A model generated the notes under the pieces. The model did no database searches, had not been told where the DNA came from, and worked only from the letters and a program-made list of their open reading frames with translations. Shown here in pieces: positions 18,010-34,496 of a stretch of 64,000 bases of DNA (the first letter of the stretch is position 1; each line of letters begins with the position of its first letter). The DNA is from Shimia abyssi (GTDB taxonomy: Bacteria > Pseudomonadota > Alphaproteobacteria > Rhodobacterales > Rhodobacteraceae), in the NCBI RefSeq assembly GCF_003014475.1, contig NZ_PYGJ01000002.1, positions 248,001 to 312,000 of the forward strand. The letters run 5' to 3'. Made by a program: the position numbers and the translations under genes.

Positions 18010-18172
18010 GCAGCCACTCTAGCCCAGCCCGCTAAGTTCCGAAATCCCGAACCGACCTGTCACCATCAAACTTGCATTGCTATGCTCGAAAAAGACGATC
18101 CAAGGGTAATCCTGCCGGAAATTGTGGGTGTTTAGAAGTGGAATTTTCTCAACAATGAACGAGGAGATTCTG

Positions 18173-19901: not shown

Positions 19902-21449
19902 ATGATGAGCGACACCGGACCCTTGCTAAGCATCTCCGGCCTGACCAAGGCCTATCCGGGCGTCGTCGCCAATGACACCGTGTCGTTTGATATCGGCCAA
20001 AGCGAGGTGCACGCGCTTTTGGGGGAAAACGGGGCCGGCAAGTCCACGCTCGTGAAAATGATCTACGGGCTCGTTAAACCCGACAGCGGCACCATGACAT
20101 GGAAGGGCCAGCCTTTTACACCAGCCGAACCCAAAGCTGCCCGTGCTGCGGGGGTCGCCATGGTGTTTCAGCACTTCTCGCTGTTTGATGCGCTCAATGT
20201 CGCCGAAAACGTCGCGCTTGGCATGGAGGATCCGCCCCCCATGCGCGATCTGGCGCGCAAAATCCGTCAGGTTTCCGAAACCTACGGCCTACCGCTTGAT
20301 CCCAACCGCACCGTTGGCGACCTCTCTGCCGGTGAACGTCAGCGGGTCGAAATCATTCGCTGCCTGCTGCAAGACCCCAAGCTTCTGATCATGGACGAAC
20401 CCACCTCGGTCCTGACCCCGCAAGAGGTCGAAATCCTGTTTGAGACATTGAACAAGCTCAAAGCCGAAGGCACCTCGATCTTGTATATCTCGCATAAACT
20501 CGAAGAGATCCGCACCCTCTGCGATCACGCCACCATTCTGCGCCTTGGCAAAAACGTCGGCGAATGTGTTCCTGCCGAAACCTCTGCGCGCGATATGGCC
20601 GAGATGATGGTTGGCGACACATTGCAAACACCGACCCGCTCAACCGAAAAGGCAGGCGACGTGGTACTCGACGTCTCTGGCCTCTCGCTAGAACCGGCCA
20701 ACCCATTTGGCACAACGTTGAAAAACATCCATTTTACTGTGCGGGGCGGCGAAATCCTTGGCCTCGGCGGGGTCGCGGGCAACGGGCAAGACGAATTGCT
20801 CGCGGCGCTGTCTGGTGAAACGCCGACATGGCCCGACGCAATCAAGGTCAAGGGCAGTGAGGTCGGTAATCTTGGCCCCAGTGCTCGCCGCCGTCTAGGC
20901 ATTTTGGCAGCACCCGAGGAACGGCTCGGCCACGCCGCTGCCCCGGATATGAGCCTTACAGAAAACGCCCTTCTCACCGGTGCTATCCGCGAAGAACTCA
21001 CCTCAAATGGTTTTGTGAACTGGTCGGGCACCACATCCTTCGCGGAAAACATCATCAAATCCTTTGACGTGCGCACCCCCGGAACGCATGTCGCCGCCCG
21101 CGCGCTCTCTGGCGGCAATTTGCAAAAGTTTGTCATCGGCCGCGAGGTGCTTCAACGCCCCGAAGTGTTGATCGTTAACCAACCTACATGGGGCGTCGAC
21201 GCCGCCGCCGCGGCAGCCATCCGCCAATCGCTACTGGACCTAGCGGCCGGTGGTGCCGCCATTGTCGTCATCTCTCAGGATCTCGACGAGCTGATGGAAA
21301 TCTCTGATCGCTTCGGCGCTCTCAACGAAGGTCGCCTATCCGACATTCGCCCCGCCGCAGGTCTCACCATTGACGAAATTGGCCTGATGATGGGTGGCGC
21401 ACACGGCATGGAAGCCGCTCATATCGGCGCAGAAGGAACTCCGGCATGA
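19902..21449 (+). CDS. ABC transporter ATP-binding protein, BMP/nucleoside type (double NBD)
   Basis: A 515-aa protein with two fused nucleotide-binding domains, like YufO/NupA of purine nucleoside importers. NBD1 has Walker A GENGAGKST, signature LSAGERQRVEI and Walker B LLIMDEPTSVL. NBD2 has a degenerate Walker A (GVAGNGQDELL, no Lys), signature LSGGNLQKFVIG and Walker B LIVNQPTWGVD with Asn in place of the usual Asp-Glu pair. Only site 1 probably hydrolyses ATP. This asymmetry is normal for the family. The two permeases and the BMP binding protein follow, overlapping or closely spaced. Confidence 0.9.
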   Translation: MMSDTGPLLSISGLTKAYPGVVANDTVSFDIGQSEVHALLGENGAGKSTLVKMIYGLVKPDSGTMTWKGQPFTPAEPKAARAAGVAMVFQHFSLFDALNVAENVALGMEDPPPMRDLARKIRQVSETYGLPLDPNRTVGDLSAGERQRVEIIRCLLQDPKLLIMDEPTSVLTPQEVEILFETLNKLKAEGTSILYISHKLEEIRTLCDHATILRLGKNVGECVPAETSARDMAEMMVGDTLQTPTRSTEKAGDVVLDVSGLSLEPANPFGTTLKNIHFTVRGGEILGLGGVAGNGQDELLAALSGETPTWPDAIKVKGSEVGNLGPSARRRLGILAAPEERLGHAAAPDMSLTENALLTGAIREELTSNGFVNWSGTTSFAENIIKSFDVRTPGTHVAARALSGGNLQKFVIGREVLQRPEVLIVNQPTWGVDAAAAAAIRQSLLDLAAGGAAIVVISQDLDELMEISDRFGALNEGRLSDIRPAAGLTIDEIGLMMGGAHGMEAAHIGAEGTPA

Positions 21450-22525
21450 TCAAGCTCGAAAAACGCCCTATGCCGTCGCGCACCTTATCTGTGGCCACAC
21501 CCCTGATCGCAGTCGCGATCACAATGATCGCTGGCGGTTTGCTATTCTCCGCCCTCGGCAAGAACCCGTTTGAGGCGATCCGTACGATTTTCTGGGATCC
21601 AATCTTTGGAGAGTTCGCCTTTTATTACCGCCCGCAATTGCTCGTCAAAGGCGCGCCGCTTGTACTCATCGCGATCGGCCTCAGCCTTGGCTTCAAGGCA
21701 GGTATCTGGAATATCGGTGCCGAAGGCCAATACATCATCGGCTCCCTGTGCGGAGCTGCTGTTGGCCTAGCGTTCTACCCATTTGACAGCTTTGTCGTCT
21801 TCCCGCTTATGATCCTTGCCGGAGCGCTTGGCGGTTGGGCCTGGGCCATGATCCCGGCACTTTTAAAGGTCAAATTTGGGACCAACGAGATCCTCGTCTC
21901 GCTCATGTTGGTGTATGTGGCCGAACAGCTGCTCGCCTCCATGTCGCTTGGCTTACTTAGAAACCCCGAAGGCCACGGCTTCCCTGGTTCACGCAATTTC
22001 AACGACTACCCTGCTGGCACGTCATGGATCAATGAGGCCGCAGGCCTGCACTGGGGCATGGTCTTTGCCTTCATTGCGGTGATCTTTGCTTACATCCTTC
22101 TCAATCGCCACATCCTCGGCTTCAACATCCGTCTCACCGGCGAAGCCCCCCGCGCCGCGCGCTTTTCAGGCGTCAGCCCAACACGTTTGATCCTGTTCTG
22201 CCTTGGCACCTCAGGCGCTCTCGCTGGCCTCGCGGGTCTATTCGAGGTCTCAGGCCCCGGCGGTCAGGTGAGCATCGACTTCAATGTCGGCTACGGATTT
22301 ACAGCGATCATCGTCGCCTTCCTTGGCAGGTTGCACCCGGTCGGCATCCTGCTCGCGGGACTGCTCATGGCTCTGACTTACATTGGCGGCGAGATCGCCC
22401 AAGGCAACCTCGGCCTGCCCTCCGCCGCCATTCAGGTCTTTCAGGGAATGCTGCTGTTCTTCCTTCTCGCACTTGATCTTCTCACCAATTACCGCGTGCG
22501 ATTTGCCGTAAAGGGAGCTGCTTAA
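21446..22525 (+). CDS. ABC transporter permease, BMP/nucleoside type (first)
   Basis: A 359-aa inner-membrane permease with about ten hydrophobic helices. It carries WNIGAEGQYIIGSLCGAA and LKVKFGTNEILVSLMLVYVAEQLL, the typical NupB/YufP family segments, and the EAA-like loop around GEAPRAARFSGVSPTR. It pairs with the permease at 22525 to form the channel for the ATPase at 19902. It overlaps the ATPase gene by 4 bp and shares one base with the next start. Confidence 0.9.
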   Translation: MIKLEKRPMPSRTLSVATPLIAVAITMIAGGLLFSALGKNPFEAIRTIFWDPIFGEFAFYYRPQLLVKGAPLVLIAIGLSLGFKAGIWNIGAEGQYIIGSLCGAAVGLAFYPFDSFVVFPLMILAGALGGWAWAMIPALLKVKFGTNEILVSLMLVYVAEQLLASMSLGLLRNPEGHGFPGSRNFNDYPAGTSWINEAAGLHWGMVFAFIAVIFAYILLNRHILGFNIRLTGEAPRAARFSGVSPTRLILFCLGTSGALAGLAGLFEVSGPGGQVSIDFNVGYGFTAIIVAFLGRLHPVGILLAGLLMALTYIGGEIAQGNLGLPSAAIQVFQGMLLFFLLALDLLTNYRVRFAVKGAA

Positions 22526-23445
22526 TGGATCTGTCCGCAATCAACCCCGTCCTGCTGATCGCCTCACTCATGGTCGCGGCCACACCACTGCTCTTGGCTG
22601 CCATCGGTGAACTCGTCGTCGAAAAGGCCGGTGTCCTGAACCTCGGCGTCGAAGGCATGATGATCGTCGGCGCGATCTCCGGCTTTGCCATTTCGGTCGA
22701 AAGCGGCTCTCCGATGCTCGGTCTTATCGCCGCAATGATCGGTGGCGCGCTACTCTCGCTGCTCTTTGCCTTCCTCACTCAGTTTGCGTTGGCCAATCAG
22801 GTCGCCTCTGGCCTTGCCCTCACCCTCTTCGGCCTCGGCCTCTCTGCCCTCATGGGGCAGTCCTATGTGGGCATCAAACCCCCGGCTATGGCCACACTGG
22901 ACATTCCGGTCATCTCTGACATCCCGGTGATCGGCCCAATCCTCTTTTCCCATGACCCTGTGCTTTATATTGGCATTGCCCTCTGCGCCGGTGTTTGGGC
23001 TTTTCTCAAATTCTCACGCGGAGGCCTTGTGCTGCGCGCGGTCGGAGAAAGCCACGATGCAGCCCATGCCCTCGGTTATAACGTCATCCGAGTGCGAATC
23101 CTCGCCATCATGTTTGGTGGCGCCTGCGCCGGTCTGGGCGGGGCGTACATCTCGCTGATCCGCGTACCGCAATGGACCGAAGGCATGACCGCAGGAATCG
23201 GCTGGATCGCTTTGGCACTTGTCGTATTCGCAAGCTGGAAACCGTGGCGGGTTTTACTTGGTGCTTACCTTTTTGGCGGTATCAACGTTCTGCAACTCAA
23301 TTTGCAGGCTGCTGGCATTGCCATTCCAGTCGAATACTTGGCAATGTCGCCCTATCTGATAACCATTCTAGTGCTGGTTATCATGTCGGCTGATAAGAGC
23401 GGTGCACCTGCGTCACTCGGCCGAACATTCCATGCCTCTCAGTGA
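22525..23445 (+). CDS. ABC transporter permease, BMP/nucleoside type (second)
   Basis: A 306-aa permease with eight or more hydrophobic helices. The opening TPLLLAAIGELVVEKAGVLNLGVEGMM matches NupC/YufQ family permeases, and VGESHDAAHALGYNVIRVR is the cytoplasmic coupling loop. It completes the transmembrane pair. The start codon overlaps the previous stop (TAATG). Confidence 0.9.
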   Translation: MDLSAINPVLLIASLMVAATPLLLAAIGELVVEKAGVLNLGVEGMMIVGAISGFAISVESGSPMLGLIAAMIGGALLSLLFAFLTQFALANQVASGLALTLFGLGLSALMGQSYVGIKPPAMATLDIPVISDIPVIGPILFSHDPVLYIGIALCAGVWAFLKFSRGGLVLRAVGESHDAAHALGYNVIRVRILAIMFGGACAGLGGAYISLIRVPQWTEGMTAGIGWIALALVVFASWKPWRVLLGAYLFGGINVLQLNLQAAGIAIPVEYLAMSPYLITILVLVIMSADKSGAPASLGRTFHASQ

Positions 23446-23485
23446 GGCCAACACAAAAACGACGAACCAACCGGGGAGAACCAAA

Positions 23486-24556
23486 ATGAAACTGACCAAC
23501 TTGCTTACAAGCGCAGCCATGGCGCTTGGTCTGGCAACTACCGCAATGGCCGCAGACACTAAAGTGGGCTTTGTCTATGTCGGACCCGTCGGCGACGGAG
23601 GCTGGACATATGAACACGATCAGGGGCGCAAGGCCGTGGTTGAAGAGTTCGGCGATGCCGTTGAAACCGTTTATGTCGAAAACGTCCCCGAGGGCGCCGA
23701 TGCAGAGCGCGTGATCACCCAGATGGCCCTACAAGGCGCTGATCTGATCTTTACAACTTCGTTTGGCTACATGGATCCCACGATCAACGTGGCCAAAAAG
23801 TTCCCAAAAGTGAAGTTTGAACACGCCACCGGCTATAAACAGGCCGACAACGTGTCCGTCTACTCGGCCCGTTTTTATGAAGGCCGTGCCGTTCAGGGTC
23901 ACATCGCTGGTCAGATGACCAAAACCAACACTATCGGATACATCGCTTCATTCCCGATCCCCGAAGTTATTCGTGGCATCAATTCGGCTTATATCCACGC
24001 CAAGGAAGTGAACCCCGATATCCAGTTCAAGATTATCTGGGCCTATACATGGTTTGACCCCGCGAAAGAGGCTGACGCAGCCAAGGCGCTGATCGAACAG
24101 GGTGCCGACGTGATCCTTCAGCACACCGATTCGACAGCACCTCAAGCGGCCGCTCAGGCAGCAGGCAATGTTATTACATTTGGGCAAGCGTCAGACATGA
24201 GCGAGTACGCCCCTTACCCGCGCGTTTCTTCCATCATTGATGACTGGGCCCCCTACTATGTGGCCCGCACCAAGGCCGTTATGGACGGCACATGGGAAAG
24301 CGTGAATACATGGCATGGCATCGGTGACGGCATGGTCGGAATCGGTGAAATTTCGGATGCAGTTCCCGCCGAAATCAAAGCCTCGGCTCTAGCACTCAAA
24401 GACAAACTGGCCGACGGCTCCTATCACGCTTTCACCGGCCCGTTGAAAAAGCAGGACGGATCGGACTGGCTGGCAGACGGCGAAACGGCTGATGACGGCA
24501 CTTTGGCCGGTATGAATTTCTACGTAGAAGGTCTGGACGCGGAAATCCCGAACTGA
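23486..24556 (+). CDS. BMP family ABC transporter substrate-binding protein
   Basis: A 356-aa periplasmic binding protein of the Bmp/Med (PnrA-like) family, which binds purine nucleosides in characterised members. The signal peptide MKLTNLLTSAAMALGL..AMAA is cleaved near residue 24, and the mature start KVGFVYVGPVGDGGWTYEHDQG is diagnostic. GGGGAG at 23473-23478 supports this ATG over earlier in-frame candidates. Neither nucleoside phosphorylase, deaminase nor kinase genes are adjacent, so the ligand may be a nucleoside, a base or a related compound. Confidence 0.9.
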   Translation: MKLTNLLTSAAMALGLATTAMAADTKVGFVYVGPVGDGGWTYEHDQGRKAVVEEFGDAVETVYVENVPEGADAERVITQMALQGADLIFTTSFGYMDPTINVAKKFPKVKFEHATGYKQADNVSVYSARFYEGRAVQGHIAGQMTKTNTIGYIASFPIPEVIRGINSAYIHAKEVNPDIQFKIIWAYTWFDPAKEADAAKALIEQGADVILQHTDSTAPQAAAQAAGNVITFGQASDMSEYAPYPRVSSIIDDWAPYYVARTKAVMDGTWESVNTWHGIGDGMVGIGEISDAVPAEIKASALALKDKLADGSYHAFTGPLKKQDGSDWLADGETADDGTLAGMNFYVEGLDAEIPN

Positions 24557-24725: not shown

Positions 24726-25385
24726 CTACTCGGGGCTCGTCGCCTCAATCCAATAGGAACCCTCTTTCCGATCAATGTGGTACTTCAGGATATTCAGCGC
24801 CTTATGAGCGTCCTGCTCAAGTACGGCATCCGTCAATTCGCAGTGCTCCCGAAATGATTTTGCCATGTGATCGGTGTGCCGGCCCAATCGATTTCTTATT
24901 GCCGCCATCTTCAAGGCGATCGTTTGATAGGCATCGTTCAGAAACCGATTGTCCGAGAAATCGAAGAAGTATTGGTGAAAGGCCGTATCCTGAACCAAAT
25001 ACTCCCCATCGTCTCCCACGGCTCTTGCCGCCGTCATTTTCTCCACGCAGTCCTTCAACGCCTCATGCAACCCTTTCGGATGTGCTTGGATCGCCAGAGC
25101 CAGAGCCGTGGTTTCAAGACACACCCGAGCGTCACAAAGCTGCGCCAGCTCCTCAGGCTCAAGACTAAAAACAAATGATCCGCGCTGTGGCTCGACAATT
25201 AGCAAACCTTCCGTTTCAAGGCGGTTTATCGCCTCGCGTACGGGCGTTCGACTGACCTCCAGATCTCTTGCGATTCGAGCTTCCGACAACTGGCTTCCCA
25301 GTTCAAAACCCCCGGATACAATGCGCTGACGAAGATTTTCCGTCACCAATTCTGTTAATGATTTCGGGCGATTAAACGGGCTCAT
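24726..25385 (-). CDS. GntR-family regulator, FCD (FadR) subfamily
   Basis: A 219-aa regulator. The winged helix lies at residues about 5-70 (LTELVTENLRQRIVSGGFELGSQLSEARIA, VSRTPVREAINRLETEGL). The C-terminal FCD all-helical domain follows, with metal-type residues in DTAFHQYF and the FREHCELTDAV histidine. The ATG at 25385 follows GGAGGAG. FCD regulators often repress sugar-acid or organic-acid genes and are released by a pathway intermediate. It is divergent from the sugar-acid TRAP operon starting at 25510 and shares its operator region. Confidence 0.9.
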   Translation of the reverse strand: MSPFNRPKSLTELVTENLRQRIVSGGFELGSQLSEARIARDLEVSRTPVREAINRLETEGLLIVEPQRGSFVFSLEPEELAQLCDARVCLETTALALAIQAHPKGLHEALKDCVEKMTAARAVGDDGEYLVQDTAFHQYFFDFSDNRFLNDAYQTIALKMAAIRNRLGRHTDHMAKSFREHCELTDAVLEQDAHKALNILKYHIDRKEGSYWIEATSPE

Positions 25386-25422
25386 ATGGCTCTCCTCCAC
25401 AAGACCTTATCAGTACCTATTC

Positions 25423-25468
25423 TGGCATACAATATACAAGTGTTGACATGTTAGCATACTGTATGCCA
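25423..25468. promoter_or_regulatory. Candidate GntR operator pair in the divergent promoter
   Basis: A perfect 13-bp palindrome GCATAC-T-GTATGC (25454-25466) and a weaker copy at 25425-25437 have centres 29 bp apart, about three helical turns. They are framed by a 9-bp inverted repeat, TGGCATACA (25423-25431) and TGTATGCCA (25460-25468). Length and symmetry fit FCD-type GntR operators. TTGACA at 25443-25448 between them could be a -35 element for the TRAP operon. Confidence 0.72.
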
Positions 25469-25509
25469 GTTTCGACTCACCTTGAAAGACCGCGATGGGA
25501 GGAGCGTCT

Positions 25510-26016
25510 TTGCACTTACTTGAGACATGGATCGTCAGACTGAACAGGGCGCTGGTTGCCTTCGCGTTGGCGGCTGTATTCCTCATCGTTTTTGCCAACG
25601 TTGTGGGTCGCTACGGCTTTGGGTCGTCTTTTGCTTGGGTCGAAGAGGTTGCGCGTCACCTTATGATCTTAGGCGCCTTCTGCGGAGCAGGTCTTGCACT
25701 GCGCGAAGGTCGGTTGGTTGCGATCACAACGGTTCCTGACCTGTTGCCAGACACGCTGGCGACCACCCTTCGATGGGGCATCGTAATCGTAATGTTTGCC
25801 TTCATGGCAACCATGCTTTGGTTGGGAATTCGCTTTGTTGAATTTGGTTGGAACAAAGAAACCATGTCGACAGGCATCTCTCGCGGCATTCCATACCTCG
25901 CCATTCCGATTGGCTGCGCCCTGTTTTTGATACAGCTCCTGTTCTTCGCAAAGCGCTTTGTCGCACAGGAATTCGAAGCAGGCCTCGATCCCGAAATTGA
26001 AAAGCTTGAGGTCTGA
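25510..26016 (+). CDS. TRAP transporter small permease (DctQ type), sugar-acid operon
   Basis: A protein of 168 aa with four hydrophobic helices and the DctQ marks FANVVGRYGFGSSFAWVEEVAR and GAGLALREG. The strong GGGAGGAG at 25498-25504 sits inside a frame that could begin at ATG 25495, so I favour the TTG at 25510; the difference is five residues. First gene of the GntR-controlled operon, followed at 4 bp by the large permease. Confidence 0.88.
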   Translation: MHLLETWIVRLNRALVAFALAAVFLIVFANVVGRYGFGSSFAWVEEVARHLMILGAFCGAGLALREGRLVAITTVPDLLPDTLATTLRWGIVIVMFAFMATMLWLGIRFVEFGWNKETMSTGISRGIPYLAIPIGCALFLIQLLFFAKRFVAQEFEAGLDPEIEKLEV

Positions 26017-26019
26017 ACC

Positions 26020-27306
26020 GTGGCGAAAACTCTGATTATTCTCTTCTTTGCCACCCTGTTCCTTAGCGTTCCCGTGGCATTCACAATGGGCATCGCCGGG
26101 CTTTCGGCAATCTTCATCAATGGCGGTCTAAACCCTTTGGTTGCCACCCAGCGTATGTTCGCTGGCATTGACAGCTTCCCGCTGATGGCCGTGCCCTTCT
26201 TCATCTTGGCGTCCGAACTTATGACCGCATGCGGGCTTACCAACGCCCTGCTGCGCTTTGCAAACGCCCTTGTTGGGCACGTGCGCGGTGGCTTGGGTCA
26301 CGTAAACATCCTCGTTTCGATGCTTTTTGCCGGGATTAGCGGCTCGGCGTTGGCTGACGCAGCAGGGCCATCGGCCATTGTGATGCGGATGATGCGTGAA
26401 GCGGGTTATGAAAAGAACTACGCTGGAGCGCTTTCAGCCGCAACCGCCACAATCGGCCCCATCATTCCGCCGTCGATCCTTGCCGTTATCTTCGCAATCT
26501 CTACAAATGGCGTGACCGTTGCGGGTCTCTTCCTTGCAGGCATCGTTCCAGGCGTCCTGCTCGGCGTGTCGCTGGCCATTGCAAACCACTTTGTTTCTAC
26601 GCGAAACGGCTATCGTGGTCGCGAACACCGTGCATCCGCCTCTGAACTTCGCAGTGCCACGTTCTCGGCAGTGCCCGCGTTGATTATGCCAGGCATCATC
26701 CTCGGCGGCATCCTTTTTGGCGTCTTCACACCAACCGAGGCTGGGGCCGTTGCATCCGCGTATGCGTTGTTCCTTGGTTTCATCCTGCGCGCTTTCACTG
26801 CTCGTACGCTCTACGCCGCTTTTGTACGCGCGGCAGTTGTGACGTCGTCGGTATTCCTGATCGTCGCAATGGCATCCATCTTTGCATGGCTGTTGACTTA
26901 CCTTCAGATTCCACAGGAACTCGCGAAACTCATCACAGAGATTACGGACAGCCGGCTCGGCATCCTCTTTATCCTCGCGGCTTTCGCGCTGATCTGTGGT
27001 TTTTTCATCGATACTCTGCCCGCGTTGATCATTCTGACACCGATCCTCGGGCCCATCGCATACTCGGCGGGCATTGATCCGCTGCAGTTTGGCATGATGT
27101 TGGTACTGAACCTGACCATTGGCATGATCACGCCTCCGGTCGGGCCCGTGCTCTTCGTCATCGCCACCGTCGGTCAACTCAAGATCGAGGCTCTGTCAAA
27201 AGCGGTTCTTCCGCTTCTGCTAGCCGAACTCATTGTGCTGCTTCTCGTCATTCTCGTGCCGGGCGTCAGCACCTTTGTCCCCAACTTCTTTGGATTTGCG
27301 AACTGA
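26020..27306 (+). CDS. TRAP transporter large permease (DctM type), sugar-acid operon
   Basis: A 428-aa polytopic transporter starting at GTG. Family segments include FPLMAVPFFILASELMTACG, LFAGISGSALADAAGPSA, TATIGPIIPPSILAVIFA and NLTIGMITPPVGPVLFV. It works with the small permease just upstream and the binding protein at 27326 to import an anionic substrate. This subgroup commonly serves C4-dicarboxylates or sugar acids. The enzyme genes downstream argue for a sugar acid. Confidence 0.9.
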   Translation: MAKTLIILFFATLFLSVPVAFTMGIAGLSAIFINGGLNPLVATQRMFAGIDSFPLMAVPFFILASELMTACGLTNALLRFANALVGHVRGGLGHVNILVSMLFAGISGSALADAAGPSAIVMRMMREAGYEKNYAGALSAATATIGPIIPPSILAVIFAISTNGVTVAGLFLAGIVPGVLLGVSLAIANHFVSTRNGYRGREHRASASELRSATFSAVPALIMPGIILGGILFGVFTPTEAGAVASAYALFLGFILRAFTARTLYAAFVRAAVVTSSVFLIVAMASIFAWLLTYLQIPQELAKLITEITDSRLGILFILAAFALICGFFIDTLPALIILTPILGPIAYSAGIDPLQFGMMLVLNLTIGMITPPVGPVLFVIATVGQLKIEALSKAVLPLLLAELIVLLLVILVPGVSTFVPNFFGFAN

Positions 27307-27325
27307 CATGAAAGGGAGGAATACC

Positions 27326-28336
27326 ATGAAACCCATGTCTAAACTGATGACTGCGACCGCAGCCATCGCAATCACCGCCGCAGGCGCTGCCTCGGCAAAA
27401 GAGCTCAAGTATGCTCACTTCCAGGCAGCTGACCTTAGCTCGCCTAAACACGCTGCAGCTCTGGCTTTCGAAGCCTGTGTGGAAGGCAAAACATCCGGGT
27501 CGATCGACGTCCAGATCTTCCCCGCGTCCCAGCTGGGGGGCGGTTCGGAGATCATGGAAGGTCTGCAACTGGGTACAGTTCAAATGGCTGCGATCCACGA
27601 TGGTCCTATCTCCGCTGTCTACAAACCGTTCTCGGTTCTGGCGATGCCGTACCTGTTCGACGACCAGGCGATGGCATGGTCTGTCATGGACGGTGAATTC
27701 GGCGATGCACTGGCCGACGACATGCTGGCAAAAACCGGAATCCGCAACTTCGGCGTGGCAGACAACGGCGTTCGTAACTTCACCAACAACGTGAAGCCCG
27801 TTGCCGAGCCTGCCGACATGGAAGGCCTGAAAATGCGCGTTATGACCGCGCCGGTCTGGATCACACTCGTCGAAAGCCTTGGCGCTTCGGCAACTCCGGT
27901 TCCATGGCCAGAACTGCCTGGCGCTCTGCAGCAGGGTGTTGTGGATGGTCAGGAAAACGGCGTGACCAACATAGTGAACGCGTCGCTTTATCAGCACCAG
28001 AAATATGTGTCCCTCGACGGTCACGTGTTCAGCTGGCACGCATACCTGATGTCGGACATGTTCTACGCATCGCTGACAGGTGACGAACAAGCCGCTGTCA
28101 GCCAGTGTGTGGAAATCTCCAAAACCATTCACCGTGGCATGACTGCCGCTCAGGACGCCAACGCAACTGCAATCCTGTCCGATTTGGGCATGGAAGTTGT
28201 TCCGGTTAGCCCAGAGCAAAAGGCAATGTTCCGTGCGGCAGCTCAGCCTGCAGTGCGCGAATACATCGTTGGTGAGATCGGTGAAGACTGGCCAAACCGC
28301 CTCGACGCAGCCGTCGAAGCCTACAAAGCTCAATAA
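27326..28336 (+). CDS. TRAP transporter solute-binding protein (DctP type), sugar-acid operon
   Basis: A 336-aa periplasmic protein with a Sec signal (SKLMTATAAIAITAAGAASA). The mature domain has DVQIFPASQLGGGSEIMEGLQLGTVQM, LKMRVMTAPVWITLVESLGASATPVPWPELPGALQQGVVDGQENG. The Arg in KMRVM and the Asn near GQENG are where family members bind the substrate carboxylate. GGGAGGA precedes the chosen ATG. DctP relatives in this group bind uronates, aldonates and C4 acids. Confidence 0.9.
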   Translation: MKPMSKLMTATAAIAITAAGAASAKELKYAHFQAADLSSPKHAAALAFEACVEGKTSGSIDVQIFPASQLGGGSEIMEGLQLGTVQMAAIHDGPISAVYKPFSVLAMPYLFDDQAMAWSVMDGEFGDALADDMLAKTGIRNFGVADNGVRNFTNNVKPVAEPADMEGLKMRVMTAPVWITLVESLGASATPVPWPELPGALQQGVVDGQENGVTNIVNASLYQHQKYVSLDGHVFSWHAYLMSDMFYASLTGDEQAAVSQCVEISKTIHRGMTAAQDANATAILSDLGMEVVPVSPEQKAMFRAAAQPAVREYIVGEIGEDWPNRLDAAVEAYKAQ

Positions 28337-28356
28337 AAATACCTAGGGACCGTCAC

Positions 28357-29325
28357 ATGACTAGCCAAACCATCGCAATACTTGAACCCGGTTACGCACG
28401 CTACGATACCGAACGCTCGGTGTTAGCACAGCATGACGTTCAAGTCTTATCGGTGGCCGGTGACGTCGAGGCGGTCCCTGCGCTACAGGCATTGGACCCG
28501 GTTGCAATACTGGTGCGCGAGCGCACGGTGGATAAGTCCGTGATCAATGCCTGCCCAAATCTGAAAGTCGTCGTCCGCTACGGAGTGGGCGTCGACAACC
28601 TTGACCTTGATCTGCTGCGCGCACGTGGGATCTACGCTGCCAATGTCCCAGACTACGGCGCCGAAACCGAAGTCAGTGAGCACGCATTGGCACTGTATTT
28701 GGCAGTCCAACGGCGTGTTCCATCCCGTGACATCGAAATTCGCGATGGCAAATGGGGTATTGGACAGGCCGCGATGATTCCTAACCGCGAGAACGCCATT
28801 CTCGGCCTCATCGGATGTGGCAAAATTGGTCTCAAGGCCGCTGAGAAATTCCGCGCCCTCGGCTTTACCAAGGTGATGGTCTTTGACCCCTACATGACAG
28901 ATGAAAATGCGACGACCGCGGACGTGGAAAAGGTGGATCTCGACACGTTGTGTTCGTCCGCCGATGTTATCAGCCTACACGCACCGTTGACCCCAGAAAC
29001 CCACCATATTCTGAACGCCGACCGCATCGCACAGATGAAGCCAACCTCCATCGTTGTCAACGTATCGCGCGGCGGCTTGGTCGATGAAGCAGCTCTCGCT
29101 GAGGCTTTGGTGGAAGGGCGCATTTTTGGGGCCGGTATTGATGTGTTCGAACAAGAACCGGTTTCCCAAGACCACCCTTTGCTCAAGAGCCCGAATACTG
29201 TCGTCTCTGATCACGCAGCTTGGTACTCCGAGCGCTCGGTGGCGGTTCTTCAGAGTAACGCTGCACACGAAATCGACCGTGTTCTGCAGGGTCAGGCCCC
29301 TCAAAGCTGGGTAAACCCATGGTAA
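28357..29325 (+). CDS. NAD-dependent D-2-hydroxyacid dehydrogenase
   Basis: A 322-aa member of the D-isomer 2-hydroxyacid dehydrogenase family (SerA/CtBP-like). The NAD site is LIGCGKIG. The catalytic triad can be read as Arg in NVSRGGLVDEAAL, Glu in FEQEP and His in SDHAAW. In this operon it may oxidise or reduce a sugar-acid intermediate at C2. It is placed between the TRAP genes and the KDPG aldolase and overlaps the latter by 7 bp. Substrate not determined. Confidence 0.87.
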   Translation: MTSQTIAILEPGYARYDTERSVLAQHDVQVLSVAGDVEAVPALQALDPVAILVRERTVDKSVINACPNLKVVVRYGVGVDNLDLDLLRARGIYAANVPDYGAETEVSEHALALYLAVQRRVPSRDIEIRDGKWGIGQAAMIPNRENAILGLIGCGKIGLKAAEKFRALGFTKVMVFDPYMTDENATTADVEKVDLDTLCSSADVISLHAPLTPETHHILNADRIAQMKPTSIVVNVSRGGLVDEAALAEALVEGRIFGAGIDVFEQEPVSQDHPLLKSPNTVVSDHAAWYSERSVAVLQSNAAHEIDRVLQGQAPQSWVNPW

Positions 29326-29951
29326 ATTTTATCGAAAAATTGCGCGCAGCGCGCGTCGTCCCAGTTATCCGACACAGCAATCCTGACATTGCCATGGCGG
29401 CCTGCGAACTATTGGTCGGCGCTGGGATCAAAGCGCTTGAAGTCACGACAACCGTTCCCCGTGCCGACACGCTCATCGCAGACCTTCGCCAGCGGTTTCC
29501 AGATATCTGCACCGGTGCCGGAACTGTTTTTACCGCCGCACAAGCACACGACGTTCTCGCTGCAGGTGCCGAGTTTGTCGTGTCACCTTGCTGGAGCGAA
29601 ACCGCCGCACCGGTCATTCTGGATGCTGGTATCCCCTATTTGCCTGGCGCGATGACACCGGGCGAAGTGCATCACCACGCCGAAAACGGCGCGTCCGTGG
29701 TCAAGGTTTTCCCGGCTGACGCGGCTGGCGGCCCCGGTTTTCTCAAGGCACTCAAGTCGGTTTTCCCTGATTTGGCCCTCATGCCAACCGGCGGCGTCTC
29801 TCCCGAGAACGCCACCGCTTACCTCAACGCTGGTGCCGTCTGCGTCGGCATGGGGGGCAAACTTCTTCCCGCAAGAGCGCTCGAGGCAAACGACCTGCCT
29901 CTGGCACGCGAACAAATAAACACGGCCATTGCGGCCGTCTCGATTCACTAA
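29319..29951 (+). CDS. eda: 2-dehydro-3-deoxyphosphogluconate (KDPG) aldolase
   Basis: A 210-aa class I aldolase of the KDPG/KHG family. LEVTTTVPRADTL carries the catalytic Glu, and VKVFPADAAGGPGFLKAL carries the Schiff-base Lys. MPTGGVSPENATAYLNAG is the phosphate-binding loop. It splits KDPG (or the galactose analogue) into pyruvate and glyceraldehyde 3-phosphate. With the KDG kinase at 31952 it gives the two terminal steps of a uronate/aldonate route. The KDPGal aldolase activity cannot be told apart here. Confidence 0.9.
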   Translation: MVNFIEKLRAARVVPVIRHSNPDIAMAACELLVGAGIKALEVTTTVPRADTLIADLRQRFPDICTGAGTVFTAAQAHDVLAAGAEFVVSPCWSETAAPVILDAGIPYLPGAMTPGEVHHHAENGASVVKVFPADAAGGPGFLKALKSVFPDLALMPTGGVSPENATAYLNAGAVCVGMGGKLLPARALEANDLPLAREQINTAIAAVSIH

Positions 29952-29974
29952 TTATGAGTTAAAAGGACAAGACA

Positions 29975-30625
29975 ATGAACACTCAAGAAATCGTAGCCGC
30001 CTTCCGCGACGTGGCAACAGCTTCGGTTGCTGACGCCGTTGACAAAATTGCTGGCAAAACCGGCTTCCTGCCGGAATCCATGAAACCACGCATCAACGAA
30101 AAGAAAATCGTTGGCCCAGCCGTCACCATTCTGGAAGGCCCATCTGACGAATTTCTGCCCCCCCAGCACGCGCTGGACGCCATAGACGAGAGCGAAGCCG
30201 GTTCGATCATCGTAATCTCGACAAACGGCACCACCGACGTTGCACTCTGGGGTGGCCTGATGACTGCTGGCGCCGTTGCAAACAAGCATGAAGGCGCGGT
30301 TCTCGATGGAGGCGTGCGCGATCTGGTGGAAATCAAGCGCGACTATGACTTCCCGGTCTACTCCCGCTGTGTAAACCCTGGCACCACTTTGGGCCGCATC
30401 AAAACGCTTGCCTCGAATGTCGAAGTCGCGATGGGCGAAGTCATTGTTCACCCCGGCGACATCATCGTTGCGGACGTTGACGGTGTCGTTGCGGTTCCCC
30501 GCGATCACGCCGAAGCGGTCCTGGAAATGGCCCGCGAGATTGACGAACGCGAAGCGGAACAAGCGCGCCTGATCATCGAAAGCGGCTCGCTGCGTGAAGG
30601 TCTGGCCAAATACGGCCGCATCTAA
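29975..30625 (+). CDS. RraA-like/HMG-CHA aldolase family protein
   Basis: A 216-aa protein of the RraA/4-hydroxy-4-methyl-2-oxoglutarate aldolase superfamily. The family core WGGLMTAGAVANKHEGAVLDGGVRDLVE gives the G-x20-R-D-x2-E arrangement used by metal-dependent class II pyruvate aldolases or decarboxylases. True RraA inhibitors of RNase E lack the full site, so an enzyme is more likely. In a sugar-acid operon it could be a second aldolase or a lyase for a branched or C5 acid. Its exact reaction is unknown. Confidence 0.83.
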   Translation: MNTQEIVAAFRDVATASVADAVDKIAGKTGFLPESMKPRINEKKIVGPAVTILEGPSDEFLPPQHALDAIDESEAGSIIVISTNGTTDVALWGGLMTAGAVANKHEGAVLDGGVRDLVEIKRDYDFPVYSRCVNPGTTLGRIKTLASNVEVAMGEVIVHPGDIIVADVDGVVAVPRDHAEAVLEMAREIDEREAEQARLIIESGSLREGLAKYGRI

Positions 30626-30641
30626 TTCTAAGTTTCCAATC

Positions 30642-30673
30642 GTTCCGCAGGCTGTTGCAGCAGCCTGCGGAAC
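30642..30673 (+). other. 13-bp perfect hairpin in rraA-MRJP gap
   Basis: GTTCCGCAGGCTG and its exact complement flank a 6-nt loop, 16 bp after the rraA-like stop codon. No T-tract follows; AACACCAAAAC comes next. It sits within an otherwise compact co-directional run, so it is probably an mRNA-processing or stabilising element, or a partial attenuator, between the cytoplasmic enzymes and the secreted protein. Confidence 0.75.
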
Positions 30674-30699
30674 ACCAAAACTCAGCAAGGGAGGAATAC

Positions 30700-31890
30700 A
30701 TGCTGAAACGACTGATCAACACGGTTGCCCTTACAACCATTCTGGCTACCCCGGCGCTCGCGAACGAGCCCGAGGTAGTAGTGGAATGGAACAGTTTGCC
30801 CTACTCCGTCAAGGACGAGGCAACAAAGGCAGCTTGGGAGGGTAGCGAAATTTACGGTCGCGCATTGGTTCAGGGCGCGAAAGTAGACAGTGAGGGGAAC
30901 ATTTACGTATCCACGGCCCGTTGGGGCGGAGCCGAAATTCCCTCAACTTTGTCTAAGCTGGTTCAGAACGGCGACACTTGGGAACTCGAAGCATATCCCA
31001 ACGAAGCGATGAACAACATCGCCGACGCAGCTGGCCTCAAGGCCGTTCTGGGCTTTGAGATTGACCGCAATGACGTAATGTGGATCCTCGACCAAGGCCA
31101 CGTTGCAGGCCCTCCTTACAAAAACGGCGACGCCAAGCTTGTTCTGTGGGACATTAAAGCTGACAAAGAAATCCAGCGCTACGTCTTCTCAAACGAGGAA
31201 GCTGACGAAAACTGCTCGTTCCTGAACGATCTCGCCGTCGACAACGATACAGGCTTTGCCTACATCGCCGACAGTGGCATCTTTTGCGATCCCTTGCACG
31301 GTGGTCTGATTGTTTATGACAGCAACACAAACTCGGTGCGTCGTATTCTGGATCAGCACCGTTTCACCAATGACGAGCCGAACTTTTTCTTCAACATCGA
31401 CGATCGTACAGTCCTCAGCGGTGGTAAAATGCGAACCGGTGCAGACGGTATCGCATTGGCTGGTGACAAAGAGACGCTCTATTGGACCAACCTGACCGGC
31501 AACCACCTCTATAGCCTCCCAACAGAGGTACTACGCGACTTCGACACAAACGAAACGGTGATTGAAAACGCAGTAGAAGTTGCCGCCGTATTGCCTTCTA
31601 ACACCGATGGCATGACGGCTGACAATGCTGGAAACATCTACATGACCGCCCTCTCGCTGGACGGCATCATGAAGTTTGACGAAAGCACACGTCAGGTCAG
31701 CCGTTTCGTACATCACCCTGAAATGAACTGGCCTGACGCGCTGGCGTGGGGCCCGGACGGCGAAATGTATGTGGTCTCCAACCACCTGCATATCTGGGTT
31801 GATGGCGACATGAACTTCGAAAATCCCGAAATCCCGAACTTCCGCATCTGGAAGATTCCTGGGGTTGGACAAAGCTACACAACTGAATAA
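30700..31890 (+). CDS. Secreted Major Royal Jelly Protein/Yellow-family propeller
   Basis: A 396-aa protein with a Sec signal (MLKRLINTVALTTILATPALA, cleaved before NEPEVV). The mature protein shows features of the MRJP/Yellow family: FLNDLAVDNDTGFAYIADSG followed by GLIVYDSNTNSVRRIL, then ADGIALAGDKETLYW and PDALAWGPDGEMYVVSN, which are blades of a six-bladed beta-propeller. The fold is close to SMP-30/gluconolactonases, so a periplasmic lactonase or sugar-acid binding role is possible. GGGAGGA precedes the ATG. Bacterial members lack a settled function. Confidence 0.78.
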   Translation: MLKRLINTVALTTILATPALANEPEVVVEWNSLPYSVKDEATKAAWEGSEIYGRALVQGAKVDSEGNIYVSTARWGGAEIPSTLSKLVQNGDTWELEAYPNEAMNNIADAAGLKAVLGFEIDRNDVMWILDQGHVAGPPYKNGDAKLVLWDIKADKEIQRYVFSNEEADENCSFLNDLAVDNDTGFAYIADSGIFCDPLHGGLIVYDSNTNSVRRILDQHRFTNDEPNFFFNIDDRTVLSGGKMRTGADGIALAGDKETLYWTNLTGNHLYSLPTEVLRDFDTNETVIENAVEVAAVLPSNTDGMTADNAGNIYMTALSLDGIMKFDESTRQVSRFVHHPEMNWPDALAWGPDGEMYVVSNHLHIWVDGDMNFENPEIPNFRIWKIPGVGQSYTTE

Positions 31891-31905
31891 TCCTCCCTAC
31901 AACTT

Positions 31906-31929
31906 GGCCAGCCCTCTCTTGAGCTGGCC
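31906..31929 (+). terminator. Short hairpin after MRJP-family gene
   Basis: A 7-bp stem GGCCAGC/GCTGGCC with a 10-nt loop, followed by CCCTTTC, 15 bp after the stop codon. Weak as a terminator. It may lower read-through into the kinase gene at 31952. Confidence 0.4.
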
Positions 31930-31951
31930 CCTTTCATAAGAAGAGATCAAA

Positions 31952-32872
31952 ATGACACCCGATATTCTCTGCCTTGGTGAACCAATGCTGGAATTCAACC
32001 AGCAACCTGACGGCAACTACCTGCCAGGACATGGCGGCGACACATCCAACTGCGCAATTGCTGCCGCACGTCAGGGCGCGTCCGTTGGTTATGTAACGCA
32101 TATCGGGGCAGACACCTTTGGAAATTCCTTCATGGACCTATGGAAGTCCGAAGGCGTCGACACATCCACCGTGTCTCAGGTCGACAGCGCCCACACAGGC
32201 GTGTACTTCGTGACGCATGGCGCCGATGGCCATGAATTCAGCTATTTCCGCGCCGGTTCCGCCAGCAGCCGCATGGGTGCAGAACACCTGCCTGTCGCCG
32301 CGCTCGAACAGGCCAAAATCCTCCATGTCTCGGGCATTTCCCAAGCGATTTCCGACACCGCCGCCGACGCTGTGTTCAAGGCAATCCGCATCGTCAAAGC
32401 CGCTGGCGGCAAGGTGTCTTACGACACCAACCTGCGCCTGAAGCTATGGCCCATCGAACGCGCCACGGCCGTAACGCATGCCGCCATGGCCCAATGCGAC
32501 ATCGCCCTACCGGGGCTTGATGACGCACAGCAACTGACCGGCCTGACCGACCCCGACGAAATTGCCGATTTCTACTTGAACCTCGGCGCAAGCGTCGTTG
32601 CTCTTACACTTGGCGCGGACGGCACACTTGTCGCGACGCCCGAGAAACGCGAACGCGTCAAGGGCCGCCGCGTTGAAGCGGTCGACGCCACTGCGGCGGG
32701 CGACACGTTTGACGGCGCATTTCTCGCTCGCATTTCCAAAGGCGACGATCCATTTCAGGCCGCTCGCTACGCAAATGCCGCTGCCGCGCTCTCAACCCAA
32801 GGATACGGCGCAGTTGAGCCGATGCCTCACAAAGACGCCGTCGAAGCATTCTTGGCAGAGGTTGTCGAATAA
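31952..32872 (+). CDS. kdgK: 2-dehydro-3-deoxygluconokinase (PfkB/ribokinase family)
   Basis: A 306-aa sugar kinase. The opening ILCLGEPMLEFNQQPDGNYLPGHGGDTSN is characteristic of KDG kinases, and VDATAAGDTFDGAFLARI is the ATP/anion-hole motif with the catalytic Asp. It phosphorylates 2-keto-3-deoxygluconate to KDPG, the substrate of the aldolase at 29319. It overlaps the next gene by one base. Function is inferred from family and context, both of which agree. Confidence 0.88.
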   Translation: MTPDILCLGEPMLEFNQQPDGNYLPGHGGDTSNCAIAAARQGASVGYVTHIGADTFGNSFMDLWKSEGVDTSTVSQVDSAHTGVYFVTHGADGHEFSYFRAGSASSRMGAEHLPVAALEQAKILHVSGISQAISDTAADAVFKAIRIVKAAGGKVSYDTNLRLKLWPIERATAVTHAAMAQCDIALPGLDDAQQLTGLTDPDEIADFYLNLGASVVALTLGADGTLVATPEKRERVKGRRVEAVDATAAGDTFDGAFLARISKGDDPFQAARYANAAAALSTQGYGAVEPMPHKDAVEAFLAEVVE

Positions 32873-33576
32873 TGCCGCACGCAGTTATCATTGGTGGCAC
32901 TCGCGGCATTGGTGCAGGTGTCGCCAGCACATTACGCGACAAGGGCTGGACATTAACCGTTACCGGCGTCAGTTCAGAAGAAGTTGCGGACTATCTCGCA
33001 GTGAACCCGCAGGACTCCGCAACTCAACTCGACGTTCGCGACACTACGGCCGTCAATGATTTTTTCGCTGGGCTGAATACTCTGGACGGGCTCGTAAACT
33101 GCGCAGGTATCCTCGCGCGGGGTGCTGAATACGATATCGACATGTTCGAAACCGTCATCGACATCAACCTGACTGGCACAATGCGTTGCTGTCTCGCGGC
33201 CCAGCCTTTGCTGGCCGCATCCAAAGGTGCGATTGTGAATACGGCTTCAATGCTCAGCTATTTCGGCGGCCCCCTAGTTCCGGCCTACTCGGCGTCCAAG
33301 GGTGGCGTGTCGCAGCTGACCAAGGCTCTGGCAGGCAAATGGGCCGAAGACGGCATCCGCGTCAACGCCGTCGCGCCAGGCTGGATCGCAACTGAAATGA
33401 CCCAAGCCCTTCAGAACGACGCAGAACGCAGCGATCCAATCTTGGGACGCACCCCCCTAAAACGCTGGGGAAAAACAACCGAGGTCGGGGAACTTGCCGC
33501 ATGGCTTCTGTCAAAGGATGCGGCATTTGTCACCGGCGCCATCTACCCTGTTGATGGTGGCTATTCAGCAATGTGA
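32872..33576 (+). CDS. Short-chain dehydrogenase/reductase
   Basis: A 234-aa SDR with GGTRGIGAG (cofactor site), VNCAGILARG, catalytic Ser near NTASMLSYFGG and the YSASK Tyr-Lys pair, then the GWIATEM and YPVDGGYSAM ends typical of classical SDRs. It probably oxidises or reduces a sugar or sugar acid (uronate, ketogluconate or similar) in this pathway. The cofactor preference is unclear. The start overlaps the kinase stop (TAATG). Confidence 0.87.
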   Translation: MPHAVIIGGTRGIGAGVASTLRDKGWTLTVTGVSSEEVADYLAVNPQDSATQLDVRDTTAVNDFFAGLNTLDGLVNCAGILARGAEYDIDMFETVIDINLTGTMRCCLAAQPLLAASKGAIVNTASMLSYFGGPLVPAYSASKGGVSQLTKALAGKWAEDGIRVNAVAPGWIATEMTQALQNDAERSDPILGRTPLKRWGKTTEVGELAAWLLSKDAAFVTGAIYPVDGGYSAM

Positions 33577-33592
33577 GCGAGGAGAAAACGCG

Positions 33593-34120
33593 ATGCCTGT
33601 CCAAGGACAAGACCACGACCCCAGAATGCCCTACCAGCTGCCGTTCCCTCAGGACGCGCAAGAAGAAATAGTCATCCCAGAGGCCGTGGCCACAGACGAA
33701 CGTATCTGGGTGCCTCAGACCGAAAACGTGTCATTCCGTCCACTGTGCCTGAACCGGTCTCAGGGATACTGGATGAACCTGCTGCGTGTGCGTAAATCCG
33801 GCGTTCTGTCCCGCCACAGACATCCCCAACCCGTGCATGGCTTTGTGCTTAAGGGGCGCTGGCACTATCTCGAACATGATTGGACCGCTGAAGAAGGCGG
33901 CTATGTCTATGAACCACCCGGCGAAACCCACACGTTGGTTGTCCCCGATGATGTCGAAGAGATGATCACCTATTTTCAAGTCAATGGTGTAATGCTTTAC
34001 GTCGACCCTTGGGGTAAAACCATGGGATACGAAGACGTCTTCACAAAAATTGACATGTGCAGAAAACACTACGAAGACGTCGGACTCGGAGCTGACTATG
34101 TCGAACAATTTATCCGGTGA
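33593..34120 (+). CDS. Cupin protein, 2,4'-dihydroxyacetophenone dioxygenase/ChrR-like family
   Basis: A 175-aa single-domain cupin. [33 protein letters not shown] gives the first metal motif (HRH and a later His), and [14 protein letters not shown] the second (Glu and His). [19 protein letters not shown] is a family feature I associate with the 2,4'-dihydroxyacetophenone dioxygenase-like group. A carbon-carbon cleaving dioxygenase is one possibility; an isomerase of sugar acids is another, as cupins with this metal set often do that. GAGGAG is upstream. It overlaps mgsA by 23 bp. Confidence 0.72.
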
Positions 34121-34496
34121 TACATTGCGGGTTGCACTCGTGGCCCACGACCAAAAGAAAGACGCGCTGGTCGCTTGGGTTGAAACAAACGCCGAGCATC
34201 TCGAATCGGCGCAACTCTACGCCACAGGCACAACCGGGTCACGCATCAACGATGCGTTGCCCGTTCTCAATATCCATTGCCTCAAAAGCGGCCCCTTAGG
34301 CGGCGATCAACAGATCGGCGCACTGATCTGCGAAGGAAAACTGGACGCGCTTTTCTTCTTCATCGATCCCATGTCGCCAATGCCACACGACGTTGACGTC
34401 AAAGCGCTGAGTCGCCTCGCGATCGTTTACGACCTGCCATTCGCAAACAGCCAGAGCACAGCCACTTACGTGCTCAAGGGCCTTCTTAACGGTTAA
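34098..34496 (+). CDS. mgsA: Methylglyoxal synthase
   Basis: A 132-aa Mgs[16 protein letters not shown] holds the catalytic Asp, [18 protein letters not shown] holds the conserved His and Asp, and [18 protein letters not shown] and YATGTTG give the substrate phosphate site. It converts dihydroxyacetone phosphate to methylglyoxal. The start codon lies inside the cupin gene, so translation is probably coupled to it. Placing this toxic-product shunt in a sugar-acid operon suggests relief of triose phosphate overload. It is the last gene of the run. Confidence 0.9.

Follow-up and report, generated by a model that had tools for sequence, protein, structure and literature searches.

A gene cluster of Shimia abyssi, at positions 24726-34496 of a 64,000-nucleotide stretch of contig NZ_PYGJ01000002.1 (C2:248001-312000, hereafter the window, within a genome of 4.73 Mb), combines sugar-acid genes with a short-chain dehydrogenase/reductase (SDR) and a cupin related to 2,4'-dihydroxyacetophenone dioxygenase (DAD). 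We propose that this operon, under the control of GntR, takes up a sugar acid and feeds 2-keto-3-deoxygluconate (KDG) into two branches, one of them oxidative and running through the SDR and the cupin. We give this two-branch model a probability of about 0.4; all of its reactions, substrates and directions are predictions.

In the ordinary branch, a kinase and the 2-keto-3-deoxy-6-phosphogluconate (KDPG) aldolase Eda would convert KDG to pyruvate and glyceraldehyde 3-phosphate. In the second branch, the SDR would oxidise KDG at C5. The product would be the hydroxymethyl ketone 2,5-diketo-3-deoxygluconate; KduD, which is among the nearest named families of the SDR, acts between KDG and this ketone. 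The cupin, a DAD-type protein with a polar pocket, would then use O2 to cleave the C5-C6 bond, yielding 4-hydroxy-2-oxoglutarate and formate. DAD itself converts R-CO-CH2OH and O2 to R-COOH and formate. An RraA-like protein, Eda or both would split 4-hydroxy-2-oxoglutarate into pyruvate and glyoxylate, and a D-2-hydroxyacid dehydrogenase (2HADH) would reduce the latter to glycolate. The model gives a role to every gene family except an exported propeller and a methylglyoxal synthase (MGS). The preliminary description had suggested that the SDR, the RraA-like protein and the cupin might supply a novel entry into the pathway. The SDR and cupin are indeed unusual, but they are better read as an oxidative way out of KDG-type acids than as a way in, with RraA fitting downstream as an aldolase.

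In its general form, in which the SDR and cupin would release the terminal CH2OH group of sugar acids as formate and the exact acid is left free, the proposal seems to us about an even bet. The form restricted to KDG is doubtful, and we are just as hesitant about a widespread non-phosphorylative module in which the pair would turn KDG, or 2-keto-3-deoxygalactonate (KDGal) in a sister operon, into 4-hydroxy-2-oxoglutarate, pyruvate and glyoxylate.

Kinship and pocket of the cupin

A phmmer search aligned the cupin to DAD (PDB code 4p9g) with an E-value of 1.2e-46, and 75 of the 161 aligned residues (about 46%) are identical. When its AlphaFold model (mean pLDDT 84.4) was searched with Foldseek, the top matches were two DAD entries (4p9g/5bpx; TMq 0.78 and 0.77), followed by 3ebr, 3cjx and acetylacetone dioxygenase (3bal). 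KdgF (5fq0) appeared at rank 50 with a TMq of 0.45, and no NCBIfam model, that of KduI included, matched the cupin at E<=0.001, which sets it apart from both of these uronate cupins.

The available text of PMC4219425 describes His76, His78 and His114 as the iron ligands of DAD, Tyr93 as a hydrogen-bonding partner of the alpha-hydroxyketone in a substrate model, and Val82 and Phe129 as the pocket of the peroxy intermediates. The cavity is lined with Phe43, Trp61, Trp137, Phe148 and Tyr153, and Ser49 and Asp63 form its polar parts. The window cupin retains the three histidines, Tyr93, Val82, Phe129 and Glu108 (DAD numbering), and thus shares the DAD iron site as well as the fold. It differs from DAD, however, in its location in sugar-acid operons and in its pocket, where the substitutions are F43Q, S49F, D63N, F83H, V127T, W137Y, F148E and Y153K; the DAD residues Phe43, Asp63, Phe148 and Tyr153 are thus all replaced. 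Except where two truncated gene calls leave gaps and where a single Leu occurs at position 49, the retained residues and F43Q, S49F, D63N, W137Y, F148E and Y153K are uniform across 91 relatives, duplicate loci included.

Our comparison set comprised the best 80 of at least 584 confirmed stretches, plus loci from same-genus and same-class genomes, the class-level loci being 35 places fetched of those in the 69 of 385 class genomes that matched at E<=0.001. We left out six small duplicate loci (L001, L002, L004-L007), as well as any cupin scoring no more than 100 bits, so that 120 cupins were analysed. His76, His78, His114, Tyr93 and Phe129 are present in 116 of them; the remaining four are three truncated gene calls and one metagenome-assembled genome with H76P. 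A genuine DAD pocket was seen in two loci (L136 and L138).

Because a lysine and other polar groups replace aromatic residues, the pocket suggests a carboxylate-bearing polyhydroxy substrate. Plasmid records from Alpha-, Beta- and Gammaproteobacteria name the family '2,4'-dihydroxyacetophenone dioxygenase family protein'; the pocket and many of the neighbourhoods argue against this aromatic label, and the family is probably mis-named. At another locus (L137:8418-10028), three tandem DAD-like cupin genes adjoin an SDR-family gene.

Pairing with the SDR and conservation of the operon

The residues Gln43, Asn63 and Lys153 define a pocket type (Q43/N63/K153) that is found in 96 of the 120 cupins. 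Genes were taken from our own codon-usage caller, and the truncated cupins L048, L081 and L123 fall among the 24 'other' cupins. An SDR with more than 42% identity lies within 2.5 kb of 92 of the 96, compared with 3 of the 24 others. After dereplication at 95%, the counts are 69/73 and 3/24 (Fisher p = 2e-14, a value that ignores shared ancestry).

Within 8 kb of the 96 cupins we detected a KDG/KDGal-type kinase in 59 cases and an Eda/DgoA-type aldolase in 42 (both at >35% identity), RraA in 55 (>45%) and 2HADH in 57 (>40%; the 2HADH of L033, at 38%, is therefore uncounted). The most frequent layout is an SDR lacking the other four gene types (29 loci), followed by DgoK/DgoA/RraA/2HADH, the sugar-ABC/DgoK type (27). 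In a further 16, a PfkB kinase, RraA and 2HADH occur and no Eda-type aldolase was detected, as expected if RraA can act as an aldolase. Ten loci have Eda as in the window, three have 2HADH only, four have nothing and seven are arranged otherwise. The SDR and cupin are thus found with a KDG-type kinase, with a KDGal kinase, or with neither; L115 combines kinase, aldolase, SDR and cupin, and DgoK/DgoA stand beside the pair in L117 and L119. Outside the 96, one locus has kinase, SDR and cupin only (L112, with Leu43 and Arg153 in the pocket), and another has a tripartite tricarboxylate transport (TTT) importer, cupin, SDR, Zn-dependent alcohol dehydrogenase (Zn-ADH) and kinase (L160). In a third (L159), kinase and SDR lie beside a galactarate/altronate-type dehydratase and sugar ATP-binding cassette (ABC) genes; the cupin is some 6 kb distant.

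A conserved-neighbourhood search had been set beforehand as the test that could refute the operon, and its outcome supports it. Among the 28 loci with a PfkB kinase near the cupin, the large permease of a tripartite ATP-independent periplasmic (TRAP) transporter is kept at 60% identity or more in 24, RraA and 2HADH in 26 each, and the SDR in all 28. The co-occurrence of the operon genes in relatives is more than chance. The propeller is present in 19 of the 28, and MGS, detected in 24 of the 59 kinase-bearing loci, is optional. The gene order recurs in a class-level genome (L116) and, as far as the contig end allows, in L107. A Rhizobium etli plasmid record lists GntR, propeller, TRAP, 2HADH, RraA, kinase, SDR and cupin, and a Caballeronia record lists lactonase, oxidoreductase, hydroxyacid oxidase, cupin and SDR. 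The cupin is distributed patchily: it was found in 4 of the 25 genomes from the genus, in 23 of 292 from the order (1e-60) and in 69 of 385 from the class (1e-3).

To avoid selecting on the cupin, we also searched the 292 order genomes, the S. abyssi genome included, with other members of the operon; the cupin, RraA, kinase and 2HADH surveys are assumed to cover the same 292 genomes. At E<=1e-50, RraA was found in six genomes, and in 6/6 the cupin shares its contig at a distance of no more than about 4 kb. At E<=1e-70, 2HADH was found in these six and in one further genome, where a match of 48% identity sits in an unrelated-looking cluster. The kinase gave 24 matches in 23 genomes at E<=1e-70; ten of these, in nine genomes, have at least 70% identity, and in seven genomes the cupin is near the kinase match on the same contig. 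None of the 14 kinase matches at 45-56% identity has a cupin on its contig.

The S. abyssi genome holds a second cupin copy, 81% identical to the first, in a sister operon (L003). This operon comprises an SMP-30 lactonase, a sugar ABC importer, a further SDR, a glyoxalase-like protein, 2HADH, RraA, a 2-keto-3-deoxygalactonate kinase (DGOK) and a 2-keto-3-deoxy-6-phosphogalactonate (KDPGal) aldolase (261 vs a cut-off of 207), followed by SDR, cupin, MGS and a divergent GntR. Both operons share 2HADH, RraA, SDR, cupin and MGS, so that one core would serve KDG-type and KDGal-type branches. The glyoxalase-like protein (L003:5698-6192) belongs to the 'glyox_marine' hypothetical family TIGR03645 (275.9 vs 262.05), and relatives in 26 of 31 DgoK-bearing loci give that family a metabolic context. 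A gene related to flavin mononucleotide (FMN) hydroxyacid oxidases (L003:14839-15990, by eye), near a TRAP set, adjoins the DgoK-type operon and has relatives in 23 of the 31 loci.

Remaining enzymes, KDG supply and competing explanations

Eda passes the cut-off for the bifunctional 4-hydroxy-2-oxoglutarate/KDPG aldolase (TIGR01182, 189.5 vs 156.05), in agreement with its earlier assignment as KDPG aldolase. The label 'KDG kinase' holds at the level of the PfkB family (Pfam; PDB relative 1wye) but not at that of the KDG-kinase equivalogs, for which the best score (KDG/KDGal kinase) is 191.6 and another is 165.3, each against a cut-off of 400. The 2HADH scores below the cut-offs of the NCBIfam PGDH, glyoxylate reductase and GhrB models. 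The binding protein DctP passes the NCBIfam dctP model (215.1 vs 175.05), and the propeller has 2qe8 and 5yyl as PDB relatives.

The RraA-like protein carries the sequence G-x20-R-D-x2-E, an instance of the motif (G-x20-R-D-x2-E/D) of 4-hydroxy-4-methyl-2-oxoglutarate (HMG)/4-carboxy-4-hydroxy-2-oxoadipate (CHA) aldolase, and it matches 3noj at 7.8e-21. In contrast to the setting of that enzyme, the window operon holds no aromatic-degradation genes. The consulted portion of PMC5065237 assigns roles to Arg123 and Asp124 of HMG/CHA aldolase and presents HMG, the 4-methyl homologue of 4-hydroxy-2-oxoglutarate, as the canonical substrate of RraA-fold aldolases. The RraA-like protein lies below all NCBIfam cut-offs, including those of the curated aldolases (NF006731, 114.2 vs 179; TIGR02798, 113.1 vs 304.5).

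The SDR scores near the KduD and BudC models, below their cut-offs, and gluconate 5-dehydrogenase is among its PDB relatives. As a classical SDR it thus resembles KduD (KDG 5-dehydrogenase) and gluconate 5-dehydrogenase, but it differs from KduD in its score, and a separate KduD above the cut-off is encoded elsewhere in the genome.

The operon resembles the known phosphorylative end steps of KDG metabolism, KDG kinase and KDPG aldolase, in its PfkB kinase and Eda. It differs in the additional SDR, cupin, RraA and 2HADH, and in having no local dehydratase. The last point had been noted before and is true of the operon, but not of the genome, which contains four IlvD/Edd-type and 11 enolase-type matches. 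Among the ten of these 15 that were typed, ManD (635.6 bits vs an equivalog cut-off of 550), Edd (936.2 vs an equivalog cut-off of 708.25) and two further proteins, above IlvD-type subfamily cut-offs, lie outside the operon. KduI (380.1 vs 250), KduD (349.4 vs 338.85) and ManD are close together on contig C8, where a second PfkB kinase, 31% identical, lies about 13 kb from ManD. Between KduD and ManD there is also a 130-residue protein without an NCBIfam match at 1e-30 (L145; G000:C8:80500-99500). Among the neighbourhoods that were read, three have a dehydratase-family gene close by, enolase-type in L025 and L087 and galactarate/altronate-type in L159. KDG can therefore be made in trans, and the dehydratase-free operon is in itself no evidence for a new entry route, so that a novel route to KDG is not called for. 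Two candidates for such a route were also discarded or weakened. The short MGS is unlikely to be a missing dehydratase or eliminase: it passes the MGS cut-offs (PRK05234, 173.7 vs 84; TIGR00160, 148.2 vs 146.9) and was not detected in 35 of the 59 kinase-bearing loci, and solved MGS structures of 126-134 residues exist. A dioxygenase step yielding KDG would need an implausible seven-carbon precursor and was rejected by reasoning only.

Several observations weigh against the two-branch model. The kinase and the oxidative branch, placed in one operon, would compete for KDG. No kinase, aldolase, RraA or 2HADH was detected within 8 kb of 33 of the 96 cupins, a few of which sit on contigs shorter than 6 kb. 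Several of these stand-alone cupins lie beside apparent housekeeping genes (read by eye, omitting part of L045-L056), so KDG need not be their substrate. In two loci (L067, L152) the SDR and cupin accompany aldose-oxidising enzymes, a lactonase and an FMN hydroxyacid oxidase, with no KDG genes, and these neighbours indicate aldonates. In view of the stand-alone pairs and the aldonate-type clusters, the SDR and cupin may have a broader or different substrate. Two further loci (L024, L091) hold TRAP, 2HADH, SDR and cupin only. Each of the pairs L008/L018 and L009/L074 probably represents a single genome seen twice. The SDR reaches only 166.8 against the KduD cut-off of 338.85 (TIGR01832). The link between pocket and SDR has exceptions: four same-pocket cupins lack the SDR (L105, at 77% identity, and L120-L122, at 57-58%), and of the three 'other' cupins with this SDR, L048 is merely a truncated gene call. 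Where the pocket is of another type, the true DAD-like type included, the cupin often adjoins a different SDR-family gene of 24-30% identity (L121, L122, L126, L136-L138), so the presence of an SDR next door is not enough to mark the sugar-acid type. The neighbours in L136 and L138, which show 25-30% identity to the queries, would fit a general dehydrogenase-then-cupin logic. Finally, two genomes (G594, G597) have PfkB-kinase orthologues of 80% identity and no cupin at 1e-60, and these orthologues gave no pathway context.

With a dehydratase encoded elsewhere acting in trans on a product of aldonate or uronate type, the cluster could be an ordinary KDG operon in which the kinase and Eda carry the flux and the SDR, cupin, RraA and 2HADH adjust side isomers or oxidation states. 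ManD, Edd and the further dehydratase-family genes are in keeping with this, as are the PDB relatives of DctP (4p47, 4nq8, 4pdh, 4p9k, 4n8g and 7bbr), which presumably include sugar-acid binders, and a locus (L162) with TRAP and enolase-type genes (both by eye), an IlvD/Edd-like gene and a related kinase (55%). We nevertheless consider this explanation unlikely. It accounts neither for the tight pairing of SDR and cupin nor for their presence in a TRAP operon without kinase or aldolase (L024 and L091), and the KduI/KduD/ManD region on C8 has its own PfkB kinase nearby. The aldonate-type clusters raise another explanation, in which the SDR acts on an intact aldonate, oxidising the carbon adjacent to its terminal CH2OH (gluconate to 5-ketogluconate, or arabinonate to 4-ketoarabinonate), and the cupin frees formate, leaving an aldarate one carbon shorter, with the KDG genes as a parallel branch. 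Aldose-oxidising enzymes, lactonases and FMN hydroxyacid oxidases adjoin in L152, L011, L081 and L067. Fe-dependent alcohol dehydrogenases (Fe-ADH; cluster C7: L033, L040, L081; Pfam run on L040) and Zn-ADH (cluster C6: L032, L035, L072, and also L160; Pfam run on L035) recur, and enzymes of these types can form hydroxymethyl ketones from diols or polyols. The relationship of the SDR to gluconate 5-dehydrogenase points the same way, but the repeated association with KDG/KDGal kinases, the 4-hydroxy-2-oxoglutarate-type aldolase and RraA is left unexplained, which makes this reading improbable.

An entry from unsaturated uronates would explain KDG without a dehydratase: the cupin, acting like KdgF or KduI, would convert a 4,5-unsaturated uronate, or the corresponding keto compound, and the SDR would reduce 4-deoxy-L-erythro-5-hexoseulose uronate (DEHU) or 5-keto-4-deoxyuronate (DKI) to KDG. 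Cupin enzymes of uronate pathways do exist, KdgF among them, and the SDR scores near KduD models. The cupin is, however, far closer to DAD than to KdgF and keeps the DAD catalytic residues, and the genome already has KduI and KduD above cut-offs. A search of the genome for alginate lyases, confined to family PF05426, gave no match. By Fischer projections, moreover, a pectin-type keto-uronate would give L-KDGal and not the D-KDGal expected for DgoK/DgoA of the sister operon, and we regard this entry as very improbable. Least credible is that KDG is made by RraA acting as a sugar-acid dehydratase, or by 2HADH oxidising a 3-deoxyaldonate at C2. The latter acid would require no dehydratase, but we know of no supply of it, and the window RraA bears the aldolase-type motif. 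FlDet, a member of the RraA family, is described in the accessible text of PMC8563752 as a KDGR dehydratase/decarboxylase that takes part in the breakdown of alginate, but it acts on a different acid. This oxidative DEHU pathway of Flavobacterium resembles the two-branch model in placing an RraA-family protein in sugar-acid catabolism and differs from it in acid and chemistry; the words 'cupin' and 'dioxygenase' occur 0 times in its main text (PMC8563752).

Gene order, regulation and implications

The gene families named in the preliminary description are all in place, but the cluster has 12 genes and not 13: a minus-strand GntR gene divergent from 11 plus-strand genes at 25495-34496 (Table 1). 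With the starts chosen in the analysis, open reading frames overlap or touch at 2HADH/Eda (29319-29325), kinase/SDR (32872) and cupin/MGS (34098-34120), which suggests a single transcript for the plus-strand genes.

Table 1. Genes and candidate operator of the S. abyssi operon (window positions)
Feature	Positions	Strand	Basis and remarks
GntR/FCD regulator	24726..25400	-	Pfam GntR and FCD above cut-offs; exact start not settled
Candidate GntR operator, inverted repeat CTGGCATACAATAT / ATACTGTATGCCAG around TTGACA	25422..25469	.	
TRAP small permease DctQ	25495..26016	+	Pfam
TRAP large permease DctM	26020..27306	+	Pfam
TRAP solute-binding protein DctP	27308..28336	+	Pfam; exact start not settled
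2HADH, proposed glyoxylate reductase	28357..29325	+	Pfam
Eda, 4-hydroxy-2-oxoglutarate / KDPG aldolase	29319..29951	+	TIGR01182
RraA-like, proposed 4-hydroxy-2-oxoglutarate aldolase	29975..30625	+	Pfam; G-x20-R-D-x2-E motif
Exported propeller, royal-jelly-protein/SMP-30 type, lactonase-like or accessory	30703..31890	+	Pfam MRJP, SGL; start uncertain
PfkB sugar kinase, probable KDG kinase	31952..32872	+	Pfam
SDR dehydrogenase, cupin partner, proposed KDG C5 oxidation	32872..33576	+	Pfam
DAD-like iron cupin, proposed hydroxymethyl-ketone C-C dioxygenase for sugar acids	33593..34120	+	Cupin_7, DAD match
MGS, accessory	34098..34496	+	PRK05234, TIGR00160

Control by GntR, as claimed earlier, is plausible through the candidate operator. 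The 8-mers TGGCATAC/GTATGCCA of its inverted repeat are present in 24 of 27 GntR-DctQ intergenic slices, the window included; the slices without them are L017, L022 and L048. When the loci were scanned for an inverted pair, 15 of them, including L017, yielded 16 pairs in total. In a scan for promoters and terminators, sites were no commoner than in shuffles (3 vs 5.0; 9 vs 11.6). An ABC importer made up of an ATPase, two permeases and a PnrA/BMP-family binding protein (window 19902-24556) ends a short way upstream of the operon. Apparent insertion-sequence remnants, seen by eye, lie at 18155-19213, with an OrfA-type frame (18155-18439) and a DDE-type integrase fragment (18770-19213).

To our knowledge, no dioxygenase step has been described before in sugar-acid catabolism. 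We found no description of the proposed pathway, or of this cupin in sugar operons, in the part of the open-licence PubMed Central text that was searched, and 'cupin' occurs 0 times in the portion consulted of a deoxyribose paper that describes an SDR pathway (PMC6365646). The SDR and DAD-like cupin may thus represent a new step in sugar catabolism. If the model is right, the DAD label would mislead for hundreds of genes (at least 584 stretches confirmed), and marine and soil bacteria would turn sugar acids into formate (C1) and glyoxylate (C2) in an O2-dependent manner.

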